Assembly: GCA_029860345.1 (NCBI GenBank)
Contig: JAOUBJ010000001.1
Location: 124,001-188,000, forward strand
Length of the DNA: 64,000 bases
From: Candidatus Zixiibacteriota bacterium
GTDB taxonomy: Bacteria > Zixibacteria > MSB-5A5 > GN15 > FEB-12
Direction of reading: 5' to 3'
The notes under the pieces were generated by a model, which made no database searches, was not told the origin of the DNA, and worked only from the letters and a program-made list of their open reading frames with translations. The position numbers and the translations under genes were made by a program. Shown piece after piece: positions 39,397-45,776 of this stretch. Each line of letters opens with the position of its first letter. Position 1 is the stretch's first letter.

Positions 39397-40749
39397 ATGA
39401 GCTCAAGACAAGACACCAGCGCGCAGGGCATTCTGTTTCTTGTTCTTCTTGCAGGCATCCTTGTATTCTCGAACGCGGACTTAAACGCAGAGTCGATTAA
39501 TCCACGATTCGAAGTTTTCGGTACGGACGAACCGATAAGTTGGTTCGCGGCGCGGGACTCGGCTGAAAATCACGGAGGTTATCTGGCCATTATCACCAGT
39601 GCCGCTGAGCAGGCCGAAGTGGCCGCGCTCCTTTCCGAGAGCGACACGGCCTGGATGGGCGGGTTTGATGTACTGATTGAAGGAAAATGGGTCTGGCTTA
39701 ACGGCGAGGCCTGGTCCTACGATAACTGGAATGTACCCCACCCGTGGCCGTCAGGATCTTATGACTACTTGCAGATTGTGGGGTCGGCAGGCGGCAAATG
39801 GGAATCAGCGGCCAGCCACACCGATGCTTACGTGGTCGAGTACGAGTGCTGTATTGAGAGCACAGGCAATGTTGATAGTGACCCTTCAGAAGCTGTCGAT
39901 ATATCCGATCTCGTCTACCTGGTCGACTTCATGTTCACCGGCGGACCGGCTCCTTTGTGCACCGACGAGGCCGATATGCAATTGTCGGGGGACATAGACA
40001 TCTCCGACCTGGTTTTCCTGGTCGACTTCATGTTCACCGCAGGACCGGCGCCGCCGGATTGTCCGCCGTTGATCGTACCACCCGGCGACACCGTCATTTT
40101 GACCGACATCACCGGGAAGCAGTGGGACATAAGTTATGCCGTGCACTTTTATGGTTTCGAACGTACCCACTTTAATTTCGGCTTGGGACCGCATTCCATT
40201 CGGCCGATAATCAACCCGGAGTTCCTCACCGCTGCCGACAGTGGATTCCCCAACGCAGACGACACCTTCATGGTTCTGGGAACTACCATCAACGGCGATA
40301 CGCGGGCTTATCCCTGGCACTCCCTGATCGGGATTGAAGTGGTCGATGATTCCTTTGACTCGGTGTACGTCGCGGCAACCTACTGACCACTCCAAGAAGA
40401 GGCTGTCGTGTACAGCCGCGAAATCGACGGTCAGGTCCTCACTTTTTCGGCCAGTGGATGGACTTACGACTTCCTGTTCGTGCTCTACGATTATGAGACC
40501 GAGACTATATGGTATCCATCTAATATCGGTGAAGCCGGTTTCGGGTGCTCCTGCGTGTTGTGGGGTGTGGCCGGTCAATTCGCCGGACGCATGATTCTCT
40601 CCGAGCAGTTTTTTAATGCGCCCTGGGACATCTGGCTGGCCGGACACCCGGATACCAAGATACTCGAAGGTGGCTTTGACGGTTGGTTCGGTGATACCCT
40701 TGACGCTGCCTATTACAAGCGCGGTCGGAGTCAAAATTCTCGGGAGTAG
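39397..40749 (+). CDS. C-type lectin/dockerin/DUF3179 protein, candidate selenoprotein (TGA 40384)
   Basis: 450 codons if the in-frame TGA at 40384-40386 is read through. A signal segment (about 10-28) is followed by a C-type lectin-like domain (about 35-150: FAARDSAENHGGYLAIITS, AWMGG, WVWLNG, WESAASH) and two dockerin halves (DISDLVYLVDFMFTGGP, DISDLVFLVDFMFTAGP). A DUF3179 domain runs from about 235 to the end: TTINGDTRAYPW, VAATY-TGA-PL, YSREIDGQVLTFSASGW, LAGHPDTKIL. The family normally reads TYCPL at this point, so the TGA replaces the one conserved Cys. The frame continues unbroken for 121 codons after it. A 17-nt stem-loop lies 14 nt downstream. Alternatives are a nonsense mutation or a sequencing error. 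Without readthrough the protein stops at 329 residues. Confidence 0.75.
40401..40417 (+). promoter_or_regulatory. Putative bacterial SECIS stem-loop
   Basis: GGCTGT-CGTGT-ACAGCC: six perfect pairs and a 5-nt loop with G as the second base, beginning 14 nt and looping 20 nt after the TGA. These values fit published requirements for bacterial SECIS elements (apical loop roughly 16-37 nt from UGA, G in the first two loop bases). The E. coli fdhF minihelix is also 17 nt. Confidence 0.6.
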
Positions 40750-40809: not shown

Positions 40810-43443
40810 CTACCAGCTTTCTCTGCCGTGACATCCGGTGTTGGTGCACTCACCGTTGGCCCAGACGCCCTGACCGGATGAAAAGCTGATCGTATTCTCA
40901 CCATCGACATGCACCCATTTTTCAACGAGGTTGAGAGAGGCATCTACTGTGGTCGAGTGACACTGGTAACATTCGACATCCTTGTCCACAACGTGCTTTT
41001 CGTGTCGTCCGGATAAACGTGCCGGATGGGCTCCGAAGTCATGACAACTGCCGCATAGGTCTATGCCGGACTCGGTCCAGGGAGGAGACTGGCTGTTGTT
41101 GCCGCCCGGGAAATCTCCATGGCAGTAAGTGTCGGCGCAGCTTGAATCGTCGCGGCTCCACGTAGCGTTCGGCCCGGCGAGAGGTCCGAAAGTAACCTCG
41201 GCGATGCCGTCCGGTCCGAAATGCTCGGGATCGTCCCATGCAAGCGGCGTGACATGACACTCGGTACAACTAAATCCAACAGCCATAGGACCACCATCCA
41301 AATGAATCGTGTGGGCACCGACGGCCAATTGAGAGGTTGCTGTTTCGCCACTTATGCCCAACGGCGGAGCGCCCGTTTGGTTATCAGCGCCGCCGTGGCA
41401 CAAAGTGCAAGTACCGGAACCACCACCGTGGCAACTACTACAGACTACCACGTCTCGCGTCAAGGTATCGATGATACCGTTCACATGCAGAGATGGATCG
41501 GTGATATTCAGCAGTGTGTCCACGACGGATGCATGGCAATCGCCGCATTTTAGCGAAGCAACCTCGACATGGAACTGGTGTTTCCAGCGCAAGTCGGAAG
41601 GTTGCGCACCGACATCGTGGCACGAACCGCAGGAGGCCGGGTCGGACGATGTCCAGACAGGCACATTGCCAACAATACCGCCGTTGAAGTTGCCATGACA
41701 ATAGGTCTGCTCACAGGTCGCATTTACCCGGTCCCATATCGACTGATCACCGGCCGTGGCGCCCCAAGTGATCTCGGCCACCGAGTCGATTCCAAAATGA
41801 TCCGGATCGACCGCCGCGGCCGGTGTCACATGACACTCATCGCATTCGATGGCACCGGCCAGCGTGCTGCTCTCGACGTGCGCGGTATGCGCCCCCACTG
41901 CAAGATCGGTCGTGGCCGTTTCCCCCTCGATACCCGAAGGTGGCGCGCCGGTTTGGTTGTCGTCGCCGCCGTGGCAATCTGTGCAATGGGCGGTGCCCTG
42001 TTCGTGGCATACGTTGCAGGCGTCGTGATCGAGTGTCAGCAGGTCGACCTCCCCGTTGACGTGCAGAGTAATATCGATAATGTTGCCCAGTCTGTCGGCC
42101 ACGCGGGCATGGCAATCACCGCAGGTGAAACCGGCTGATGTAATATGAAACTCATGGATACCGCCGATCTTCCCTGGATCGACGCCGACGTCATGACATG
42201 AACCGCAGTCGGCCTGACCACCGGACGTCCAGACGGGAGCGTTGGAAGGGTCACCGCCTGAGAAACTACCATGGCAGTACGTTTGCTCGCAGGTGGCCGC
42301 AGCCCGACCCCACACCGATTGCCCGCCGGCGATTCCGCCGAAATTGATCTCGGCCACCGAATCAGCACCGAGATGGCCCAAATCCTGAACGTTGGTCGGA
42401 ACGTTATGGCAGCTTCCACACTCGAATGCCGCCGCAATCTCACCGTCTTCGAGATGCGCGGTGTGCGCACCCACGGCCAGGTCGGTTGTCGCACTCTCTC
42501 CTTCAAGTCCGGTGGGCGGCGCGCCGGTGGCATTATCAACACCTCCATGACAGGCGGTACACGCATCAACACCGGCACCATGGCAAACATTGCAAACGGT
42601 GGTGTCCCTTGTCAGCGTATCGACGACTCCGTTGACATGCAGATTTAGATTCGTGATCTGTAGCGCGGTATCAATTACGGTGGCATGACACTCAACGCAA
42701 CCAAGCCCAACCGTTCCGACATGAAAAGCGTGTTTCCAACCGAGGCGCTGCGGATTCGCGCCGTCATCGTGGCAACTTCCACACTCGGCCTGTCCGGTAG
42801 CTGTCCATAGCGGCGCGTTGCCGGCGTTGCCGCCTGAAAAATCACCATGGCAATAGGTGTTCCGGCAGGTCCGGCTCTCACGGTCCCACACGGCCGTCCC
42901 GGCATCGCTGATGCCGTGCCAGATTATTTCGGCGATCGAGTCAATCCCGAGATGTCCACTGTCGGATGCCACCACCGGCACCAGGTGGCAGGCGTCACAA
43001 CTCACGGCGGTCGCAATATCCGACGCCGTCAGGTGCTCGGTGTGGGCGCCGACGGCAATCGTTGTGTCGTATATCTCCCCGTGCAGACCCGTCGGTGGCG
43101 CCCCGGTAGCGTTGTCTCGGCCTCCGTGACAGGTAACGCAGGCACCTTTCTCGATATGACAATCGATGCACGACACCTGCACCTCGCCACCGTCAAAGTC
43201 GGCACCATGACATTCTCGACAACTCTCTGAACTGCCGGCTGTCACTACGCGACCGTGAAAGTCAGACGAACTCTTGTCCATCCAGGCACCGGGATGGGTG
43301 CCGGGCAGTGTAGACGTGGTTTTTTGATCACTGCAACCGCACAAAAGTGTGATGCACACCATCAGCCAAAGGCCAAGTACCCAGGCTACATTCTTGCGGT
43401 AGTGGCCGGTTCTGAGCGAACGATGGAAAACCATATCAGTCAT
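40810..43443 (-). CDS. Outer-membrane lipoprotein multihaem cytochrome c (about 26 haems)
   Basis: About 877 residues from ATG 43443 (ATG 43434 also possible; the long upstream extension lies antisense-like inside the previous gene and is rejected). The hydrophobic stretch ends in LLCGCSDQ, a lipobox. I count 21 CxxCH and 5 CxxxxCH haem motifs (CRNTYCH, CEQTYCH twice, CADTYCH, CTNTGCH). The alternation is that of the CxxxxCH/CxxCH domain family known from Geobacter. The protein is built of about four repeats of 190 residues, each with GAHTxHL and a TYCHGxFxGG block. It is the third gene after a porin and a 14-haem cytochrome, with start overlapping the previous stop by 8 nt. It is probably displayed at the outer surface for electron transfer. 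Confidence 0.85.
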   Translation of the reverse strand: MTDMVFHRSLRTGHYRKNVAWVLGLWLMVCITLLCGCSDQKTTSTLPGTHPGAWMDKSSSDFHGRVVTAGSSESCRECHGADFDGGEVQVSCIDCHIEKGACVTCHGGRDNATGAPPTGLHGEIYDTTIAVGAHTEHLTASDIATAVSCDACHLVPVVASDSGHLGIDSIAEIIWHGISDAGTAVWDRESRTCRNTYCHGDFSGGNAGNAPLWTATGQAECGSCHDDGANPQRLGWKHAFHVGTVGLGCVECHATVIDTALQITNLNLHVNGVVDTLTRDTTVCNVCHGAGVDACTACHGGVDNATGAPPTGLEGESATTDLAVGAHTAHLEDGEIAAAFECGSCHNVPTNVQDLGHLGADSVAEINFGGIAGGQSVWGRAAATCEQTYCHGSFSGGDPSNAPVWTSGGQADCGSCHDVGVDPGKIGGIHEFHITSAGFTCGDCHARVADRLGNIIDITLHVNGEVDLLTLDHDACNVCHEQGTAHCTDCHGGDDNQTGAPPSGIEGETATTDLAVGAHTAHVESSTLAGAIECDECHVTPAAAVDPDHFGIDSVAEITWGATAGDQSIWDRVNATCEQTYCHGNFNGGIVGNVPVWTSSDPASCGSCHDVGAQPSDLRWKHQFHVEVASLKCGDCHASVVDTLLNITDPSLHVNGIIDTLTRDVVVCSSCHGGGSGTCTLCHGGADNQTGAPPLGISGETATSQLAVGAHTIHLDGGPMAVGFSCTECHVTPLAWDDPEHFGPDGIAEVTFGPLAGPNATWSRDDSSCADTYCHGDFPGGNNSQSPPWTESGIDLCGSCHDFGAHPARLSGRHEKHVVDKDVECYQCHSTTVDASLNLVEKWVHVDGENTISFSSGQGVWANGECTNTGCHGRESW

Positions 43444-44491
43444 GGCAGTACCCACAGAAGCCAAGTCCGCGTTCGTCGGTGCTGGTGTGGCATTGATAGC
43501 AGAAATATCCGCGGTCATCATGCCACGGACCGTGTTCATCATCGAAGCGAGCCGATCCCGGATCGTGAATGGCCGCATCGGTTCCGCGCACACCATCGAA
43601 ATCCGAATGACAACCGCCGCGAGCGCAGGTTGGGTCGTTCGAGTCGTGACAGGCGGCGCAGTTTTCAACATCGGCTCGGGCCGCTGCGCCATGTTCCATC
43701 GTCCACGACAACGTCGAATGTCTCAGCGGCATGCGACGTTCGCTTTCGTGGCAGCCGTTGCAGAAACTTCGTGTGTTGTGACATCGTCCGCACTCGGTCT
43801 GTCGGCTTTGCGCATCCAATCCGTGAGTAAAAAAGTAATTCAGATCGTGAATATGGCCGGTGAGGTTGTCACCACGGTGGCATTGCAAACAGGCCGTCTC
43901 ATGCTGGTGACAGCCAACGCACCAACTGGTTTCGAGAGCGGCTCGATCACCGTGCCGGTGTCGCCAGTCGTCGGGATGTATGTCGGCCAAAGTGATTAGA
44001 GCGCCATGGCAGAGGGCGCAATCGTCGTCCGCCTTGGTGCCATTATGACATTCCATGCAGAGAGCCATCTTCGGCAGGTGGGCCTGGCTGGATCGCTCAC
44101 TGGTTGAGACTCCGGCGTGACAGTAGGCACATGCCGTCCCGGCGCCGATATGCTTTGCATGATTAAACAGTATTGGACGTTCCGGGTTGACCAATTCCTC
44201 AGGCTCGTCCGGGTGTCGATGACATTGATAACAGTTTTCCTCGTCCTCAACATCGTGACAGGCGCTGCATTCGTCCATCGTGGGCAGGTTTTTGTCGCCG
44301 GCTTGTTGGCTGGATTCTATGTCTATGTGGCAGTCAGCGCACTCGATCTCCTGGTCGGTCACATGAAGATCGTGGGAGAACAACAGATCACTTTCCGGCA
44401 CCACCAATCGCGCTTCGGGCACAATCCCCGCCGCCCAGACGATTCCGCAGGTTGTCGCAAGAGCCGCAAGAAAAATGTATACGTGTCTCAT
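43436..44491 (-). CDS. Periplasmic multihaem cytochrome c (about 14 haems)
   Basis: 351 residues from ATG 44491. A signal peptide (about 4-21, ending AWAAG-like) directs it to the periplasm. Thirteen CxxCH and one CxxxxCH (CARGGCH) motifs are visible, with scattered distal His (FNHAKH, FSHDLHV) of cytochrome c3/c7 style. Its start is 4 nt after the barrel gene stop and its end overlaps the next cytochrome gene, so the three are co-translated. The likely role is to carry electrons between the inner membrane pool and the barrel-embedded conduit. Confidence 0.85.
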   Translation of the reverse strand: MRHVYIFLAALATTCGIVWAAGIVPEARLVVPESDLLFSHDLHVTDQEIECADCHIDIESSQQAGDKNLPTMDECSACHDVEDEENCYQCHRHPDEPEELVNPERPILFNHAKHIGAGTACAYCHAGVSTSERSSQAHLPKMALCMECHNGTKADDDCALCHGALITLADIHPDDWRHRHGDRAALETSWCVGCHQHETACLQCHRGDNLTGHIHDLNYFFTHGLDAQSRQTECGRCHNTRSFCNGCHESERRMPLRHSTLSWTMEHGAAARADVENCAACHDSNDPTCARGGCHSDFDGVRGTDAAIHDPGSARFDDEHGPWHDDRGYFCYQCHTSTDERGLGFCGYCHD

Positions 44492-44495
44492 CAGA

Positions 44496-45776
44496 TCAGT
44501 TTCCCCCTTCGGCACCAACGGCAAAGCCGCGGCTGAGGCGCAGGTATAGTCTGGTATCGTTGCTTTGAACCGCGTTGCGAAGAAGTTGCGCCTCTACCCT
44601 CAAATCGTAGCACCCCGCTACACGCCGCGATGCTCCGACACTGATGGCGTGGGCGTCACTGTGATCCTGCTGTTGCTCCTGAACACGATAGCGACCCAGT
44701 GAAGCGCTGCCGTATAGCGTCCAGCCGTGGACAGGATTGGACCTGATGGACCCACGCAATGAATTGTTGTCGCCACCTCGTCCGCTTTGATGAAACCAAT
44801 CGACCCGCCAGACAGCGGTGGATAGCCCGACACCAAACCGCCAGGTCTCCGAGTCTTCAAACAGCCCGACCTGAAGTTGACTGTTCAGCCTCAGACGCCG
44901 GGGCAGCGACCGTTGTCCCGTCAGACGCAACTGACGCCACGAGCGCGCCTCTATCAGACTGAAAACCGAATTGGCTGACACCGATGGTTCGCGATAGAGA
45001 TACTCCGCCGAGAACTGCCAGGGACGATTGCGATAGCCGGTGCGAAACAGGACGGTGGCGAAGCTCTCGTCGATCATGTTGCGAGCTAAGCGTCCATACA
45101 TGCGAAATTGTCGCCATGAATAACTGCCGTCCAGGCCGAGGCGATGAAAGGATAACACTCCGTCGTTCTCACGCCGGTGCCAACTTAATCCCAGCGGCAA
45201 GGCAGCGATAGGTTTGTACGAGAGCCGCCCACCCATCACCAAGAAGTCTGCAAGTGAGCGAACGGTCTCCGGATCGAGCCGATCCACCGAACTACCAGCC
45301 AACAGTTCCAGCTTTGCCTTTCGATAGGGCCCTATTCGCAGCCGGACGCCGTCCAGCAAGTCACTTCCTGCACCGCTGAAGACAAACTGCCGTCCTACCG
45401 ACAGCTCCGCGACTCTGCGCGGGGTCTGATAGCGTAAGTATGCATCATATACAAAGAACTGCGGATCATCGGGACCGGCATCAAGGATATCGGTCGTCCA
45501 GCGTGAGTATGTTTTGAACGCAATACTCCCATGGCGGCTGTCGTGTAAGCGCATCTGAGCCCGGAGCGACTGATACGGTCTGAAATGTTCACTACCGGCG
45601 GTTGTGCGTCCATAAAACTCAGTGGTAAGCGTTCCCTTCAGGCTGACCGCCGCCGTACTTTCTACCGGAAAGATAGCCGGAAGAATCGGCAGCAGCAGAA
45701 GACAAACCCACCTGGCGCCGTGCCGCCTACATGAACGTGTGACCTTCAGTTTCAACAACACCTCTCTTGTCACCAC
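44496..45776 (-). CDS. Outer-membrane beta-barrel of putative porin-cytochrome conduit
   Basis: About 426 residues. The start is uncertain: GTG 45776, or a TTG at about 45755 that follows AGAGAGG. The signal peptide covers WVCLLLLPILPAIFPVESTAA. The rest is amphipathic strands with Arg and aromatic residues (LTTEFYGRTTAG, SIAFKTYSRWTTD, VAELSVGRQFVFSGAG, WRFGVGLSTAVWRVDWFHQSG), ending LYLRLSRGFAVG. No match to MtrB is claimed and no N-terminal CXXC is seen. Its place before two cytochrome genes suggests a barrel sheath, as in Geobacter porin-cytochrome gene clusters. A non-cytochrome porin role cannot be excluded. Confidence 0.6.
   Translation of the reverse strand: MVTREVLLKLKVTRSCRRHGARWVCLLLLPILPAIFPVESTAAVSLKGTLTTEFYGRTTAGSEHFRPYQSLRAQMRLHDSRHGSIAFKTYSRWTTDILDAGPDDPQFFVYDAYLRYQTPRRVAELSVGRQFVFSGAGSDLLDGVRLRIGPYRKAKLELLAGSSVDRLDPETVRSLADFLVMGGRLSYKPIAALPLGLSWHRRENDGVLSFHRLGLDGSYSWRQFRMYGRLARNMIDESFATVLFRTGYRNRPWQFSAEYLYREPSVSANSVFSLIEARSWRQLRLTGQRSLPRRLRLNSQLQVGLFEDSETWRFGVGLSTAVWRVDWFHQSGRGGDNNSLRGSIRSNPVHGWTLYGSASLGRYRVQEQQQDHSDAHAISVGASRRVAGCYDLRVEAQLLRNAVQSNDTRLYLRLSRGFAVGAEGGN

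Follow-up and report, generated by a model that had tools for sequence, protein, structure and literature searches.

An in-frame TGA within a DUF3179 domain

Does the in-frame TGA at this locus end a gene or is it read as selenocysteine (Sec), and what might such a residue do? Within the window (the whole 64,000-nucleotide stretch that was analysed), the frame at 39397-40749 (+) encodes 450 residues when TGA is taken as a residue. As the preliminary description had stated, it contains a single internal TGA, codon 330 (40384-40386, +); it terminates at TAG, and under translation table 11 it ends at residue 329. Elsewhere TGA behaves as an ordinary stop, ending 12 of the 37 long open reading frames (ORFs) of the window, and genome-wide recoding of TGA was rejected on this ground. 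Our sequence analysis indicates, with a probability of about 0.96, that the UGA at 40384-40386 is read as Sec330 and that the window gene is a selenoprotein gene.

Several domains precede the TGA. A hydrophobic N-terminal helix (residues 8-26; 39418-39474, +), recognised in the sequence and also helical at residues 8-26 of a structural model, is probably an export signal or anchor. It is followed by a C-type lectin domain with putative sugar binding (residues 46-147; 39532-39837, +; Pfam Lectin_C, E 2.6e-7), which scored 31.8 bits against a gathering score of 22.6. Between the lectin domain and the DUF3179 part sit repeats of the DISDLVYLVDFMFTGGPAP form, two dockerin-like units (DISDLVYLVDFMFTGGPAP and DISDLVFLVDFMFTAGPAP; 39865-40062, +) that were found in the sequence and whose counterparts in paralogue tails match NF045500. 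The Pfam dockerin type I model had no match in the window protein at E 0.001, and the label "dockerin-like" is used here solely on the basis of inspection by eye and the NF045500 tail. These repeats resemble ones associated with the candidate phylum Zixibacteria.

The TGA itself lies inside the DUF3179 domain. Pfam PF11376 matched residues 270-424 (40204-40668, +; E 5.4e-24; 85.6 bits against a cut-off of 27), and the match runs across codon 330, so both sides of the TGA belong to DUF3179, as had been proposed. Because the match covers only profile positions 6-148 of 292, the window protein carries about half of a DUF3179 domain, the first half, and is not a full-length member. The TGA codon falls at the cysteine of the family's TYCPL motif. 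Farther downstream, the alignment of the short class described below marks Cys384-Ser-Cys386 (40546-40554, +) as a candidate redox partner.

Selenocysteine machinery and DUF3179 paralogues in the genome

The genome that holds the window (4.76 Mb in 35 contigs, 99.3% complete) encodes every part of the Sec machinery that the preliminary description had named. selA (E 1.1e-151) and selB (E 2.1e-91) are adjacent on contig C6, and a tRNA-Sec with anticodon TCA scored 69.4 bits. selD (E 4.6e-113) has its own in-frame TGA (CAG-U-ASK), at a position typical of Sec-containing SelD. Directed by a hairpin 14 nt downstream, SelB and Sec-tRNA-Sec would decode the UGA at 40384-40386 as Sec330.

Five DUF3179 genes were found in this genome, four of them with TGA at the shared column. 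L019 (ATYUPIAG) and L018 (ATYUPLQ) resemble the window gene in architecture, with TGA at the column and 54-56% identity to it; L017 is a full-length DUF3179 gene with TGA (VTWUPLC) and L016 a full-length gene with Cys (VTYCPLTG). The half-length multidomain form, the three further TGA-containing DUF3179 genes and the Gln three residues after Sec (position +3) lay beyond what the author of the preliminary description could see.

A covarying hairpin downstream of the TGA

A hairpin with a 6-bp stem and the loop CGTGT lies at 40401-40417 (+), composed of GGCTGT (40401-40406), the loop (40407-40411) and ACAGCC (40412-40417). It starts 14 nt after the TGA, its loop starts 20 nt after the TGA, and G occupies loop position 2, in agreement with the SECIS-like stem first pointed out at this site. 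Bacterial SECIS elements are described as having a loop of 3-9 nt, an upper stem of 4-16 bp, a distance of 16-37 nt between UGA and loop, a G within the first two loop bases and a minimum free energy of -7.5 or lower (PMC13188914), and the window hairpin lies within every one of these published constraints. Folding of the 19-nt hairpin gave -8.8 kcal/mol, and none of 200 shuffled sequences was as good. Adding 60 nt of upstream sequence favoured a different fold in silico; a ribosome stalled on the UGA would mask part of those nucleotides. Among codons of the long ORFs of the window, 5.8% are followed by a 6-bp hairpin under loose SECIS rules and 0.36% by one with the exact spacing and loop geometry. 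Because loose-rule hairpins are this frequent, the single hairpin is modest evidence, and it is the comparative sequence evidence, rather than the lone hairpin, that settles the Sec reading. A role as a terminator was rejected, the only terminator-like match being this stem read on the opposite strand (1 found against 1.6 expected).

For the comparison, 36 TGA genes of the phylum were placed in register without gaps. They share a 6-bp stem 14 nt past the TGA and a 5-nt loop that keeps G at position 2; all six pairs form in 34 of the 36, with one mismatch each in L018 and L039. A six-pair stem is absent from all 11 Cys homologues, the best of which forms four of six pairs. As a control that keeps the protein constraint, codons were permuted among sequences sharing the same amino acid at a column, and 2000 such synonymous permutations gave at most 26 perfect stems compared to the 34 observed. 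Protein conservation as the sole cause of the hairpin was rejected by this result. Pair counting showed 99.1% of cells paired and 34 double-change cells compared to 7.4 (sd 2.1) after shuffling. Compensatory changes occur in five of the six stem pairs; the window stem GGCUGU/ACAGCC, for example, corresponds to GGCCGU/ACGGCC in L019. When the partners were slid by one to three bases, pairing fell to 19-54%. These counts are not independent because the 36 sequences include close relatives; kinship alone would not make the codon and sliding controls favour the stem.

These results also bear on whether the UGA could be read through as Cys or Trp, or act as a regulated stop that yields mainly a 329-residue lectin protein. 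Sec insertion efficiency cannot be computed, and Sec-dependent genes often yield some truncated product, both of which leave room for such an outcome. It is nevertheless very improbable, since TGA is an ordinary stop elsewhere, homologues have Cys at the column, tRNA-Sec, SelA, SelB and SelD are all encoded, and the hairpin occurs only alongside TGA.

TGA, Cys and Ser codons across the phylum

Among the 133 genomes of the phylum, PF11376 was detected in 34 and selA in 120. A candidate selA frame interrupted by a single TGA was reported for one relative (G059 C64:9741-11075). In the DUF3179 frames that were read, the column codon was TGA in 36, TGC or TGT (Cys) in 11 and TCG (Ser) in one. This distribution bears out the assignment of the TGA to the TYCPL cysteine and provides the TGA/Cys pairs among homologues to which the preliminary description had looked. 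In a tree, the TGA members fell into two groups, 29 full-length (WUPLC) and 7 short, and the 11 Cys members formed one group; the tree requires at least two label changes. The Ser member, L067 (G099 C270:1188-2075), is a full-length DUF3179 gene on a long branch (TWSPFSFSS), possibly a non-redox descendant.

The short class, to which the window gene belongs, has TGA in 7 of 7 members from five genomes and three families, and Cys at the column in none of the seven. A lectin-like N-terminus was recognised by alignment in five of the seven; in L054 part of such a terminus lies next to a run of N, and the N-terminus of L057 is of another kind. After Sec, the window protein reads UPLQ and its six short-class relatives read UPLQ, UPIA, UPLK or UPLR, so that position +3 holds Gln, Ala, Lys or Arg and in none of the seven Cys or Thr. 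Cys384, about 54 residues past Sec330, is invariant in all seven proteins, and the second Cys of the Cys-x-Cys (Cys386 in the window protein) is present in six. The full-length class lacks such a Cys-x-Cys and retains Sec-Pro-Leu-Cys.

Standard annotation would close the ORF at residue 329, as would fit a true stop in a pseudogene or a sequencing error with the downstream frame a relic, and a loosely fitting hairpin is not rare by itself, as the 5.8% of codons above illustrates. This explanation was rejected on the evidence of paralogues and relatives and is highly improbable. TGA stands at the same column in the two diverged paralogues and in four other short-class genomes, the domain runs on in frame past it, and the hairpin covaries. 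Error and decay are both untenable because the identical TGA recurs in separately assembled genomes with no other frame breaks. The decay of relatives by stops or frameshifts, raised in the preliminary description as a reason for doubt, was not seen: apart from the TGA, the frames of the short-class paralogues and of the relatives in the four other genomes are intact.

At three loci (G035 C2:152276-154269, L061; G034 C7, L062; G033 C194, L059), we also observed full-length Sec-coded and Cys-coded DUF3179 genes as direct neighbours in the same orientation, approximately 260 bases apart. This arrangement implies that both forms are maintained together.

Relation to known selenoprotein families

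The preliminary description was right about Sec at the TYCPL cysteine, the SECIS element and the machinery, but not about the novelty of the family, of which it knew no described selenoprotein. DUF3179 (pfam11376) is listed as a selenoprotein family with the motif UxxC/T in Table 1 of a 2022 review (PMC9312934) and again in a table of a 2026 review (PMC13188914). Both credit it to the work of Zhang & Gladyshev 2007 on the Olavius algarvensis delta symbiont (reference 63 in PMC9312934, reference 60 in PMC13188914). The window gene shares with the listed proteins the Pfam domain and Sec as the presumed redox residue, and L017 (UPLC) fits UxxC/T. Compared by the listed motif, the window gene differs in its +3 Gln (UPLQ), which places it outside UxxC/T, and in its extra Cys-x-Cys; it also differs in that half a domain is fused to lectin-like and dockerin-like parts. 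A DUF3179 form with such parts was not found in the literature that was searched, although the sequences of Zhang & Gladyshev 2007 could include one. The short, lectin-carrying half-domain class (n = 7), with Sec in all members, appears to be previously undescribed.

Within the genome, the Cys form L016 (TYCPLTG) has the column and the domain in common with the window gene, but it has a Cys codon, is full-length, and lacks both a hairpin at the SECIS site and the lectin-like and dockerin-like parts. The Omp28-related selenoprotein model NF045500 (NCBIfam) matches, with its end, the dockerin-like tail of paralogues P0002 and P0003; its main domain has no match. Genome G000, which holds the window, gave 137 NF045500 matches, all confined to the tail and none over the cut-off, spread over many large ORFs of up to 1956 residues. 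The dockerin-like repeat thus recurs widely as a module in the large proteins of this organism, and Omp28_seleno was rejected as a family of this genome. A search of the genome contigs with the whole protein brought up a lectin-repeat protein and nothing else, and a search of a plasmid collection found no close DNA match.

Possible function of the short class

The hydrophobic N-terminal stretch and the extracellular-type domains suggest that the window protein is exported, and its lectin-like and dockerin-like parts would probably hold it on the cell surface or on a glycan. The most likely role for Sec330 is as the attacking selenol in a redox centre, and the protein would be active outside the cytoplasm as a selenol-disulfide oxidoreductase or as a peroxide or thiol reductase. 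That the protein is an exported selenol-disulfide oxidoreductase has, on the sequence features described, close to an even chance. In the full-length class, the partner of Sec would be the Cys at +3 (Sec-Pro-Leu-Cys). In the short class, which lacks this Cys, the conserved Cys384-x-Cys386 may act as the resolving pair, and an economical reading would be that the Sec partner changed place. We regard the assignment of Cys-x-Cys as the partner of Sec330 as tentative. The broader proposal is similarly doubtful: that the short class comprises distinct exported, lectin-carrying, Sec-only oxidoreductases whose resolving Cys moved from +3 to the downstream Cys-x-Cys, and which have no Cys-coded orthologue in the phylum.

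The main rival to the oxidoreductase reading is that Sec330, together with Cys384-x-Cys386 and conserved acidic residues, serves in metal binding or structure rather than in redox catalysis. The loss of the UxxC pair in the short class, the conservation of the Cys-x-Cys and of the E314/D318 region, and the calcium normally bound by lectin and dockerin-like domains would fit such a role. It is rather unlikely, given that Sec residues of bacteria are mostly redox centres (PMC9312934) and that UxxC, the usual redox pair, is retained in the sister class.

The three-dimensional models give no clue to the reaction. The AlphaFold model of the full protein had a mean pLDDT of 61, mostly 84-96 over residues 261-370 and poor outside the DUF3179 part, and a domain-only model was poor (52). 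Foldseek against the PDB gave no match below E 0.4, and a profile search of solved structures gave none below E 0.5.

Neighbouring genes and implications

No conserved neighbourhood was found among the three paralogues examined. The adjoining genes differ and are unrelated, so they offer no operon clue to function, and an operon-based assignment was rejected. Convergent with the selenoprotein gene, three consecutive genes lie at 40810-45776 (-). Their products are a multihaem cytochrome of 960 residues (Cytochrome_C7, GSu_C4xC__C2xCH), another multihaem cytochrome with 362 residues, and a protein of 426 residues that has no Pfam match and a sequence like an outer-membrane barrel. The trio is similar to the porin-cytochrome conduits that serve extracellular electron transfer.

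Standard gene calling would truncate all 36 genes at the TGA, so that the presumed redox half of each protein would be missing from annotation. Since DUF3179 in this phylum is Sec-coded more often than Cys-coded, and selA is so widespread, the phylum is suited to the study of coexisting Sec and Cys forms. The short class poses a testable question: what substitutes for the +3 Cys as the partner of Sec outside the cytoplasm.
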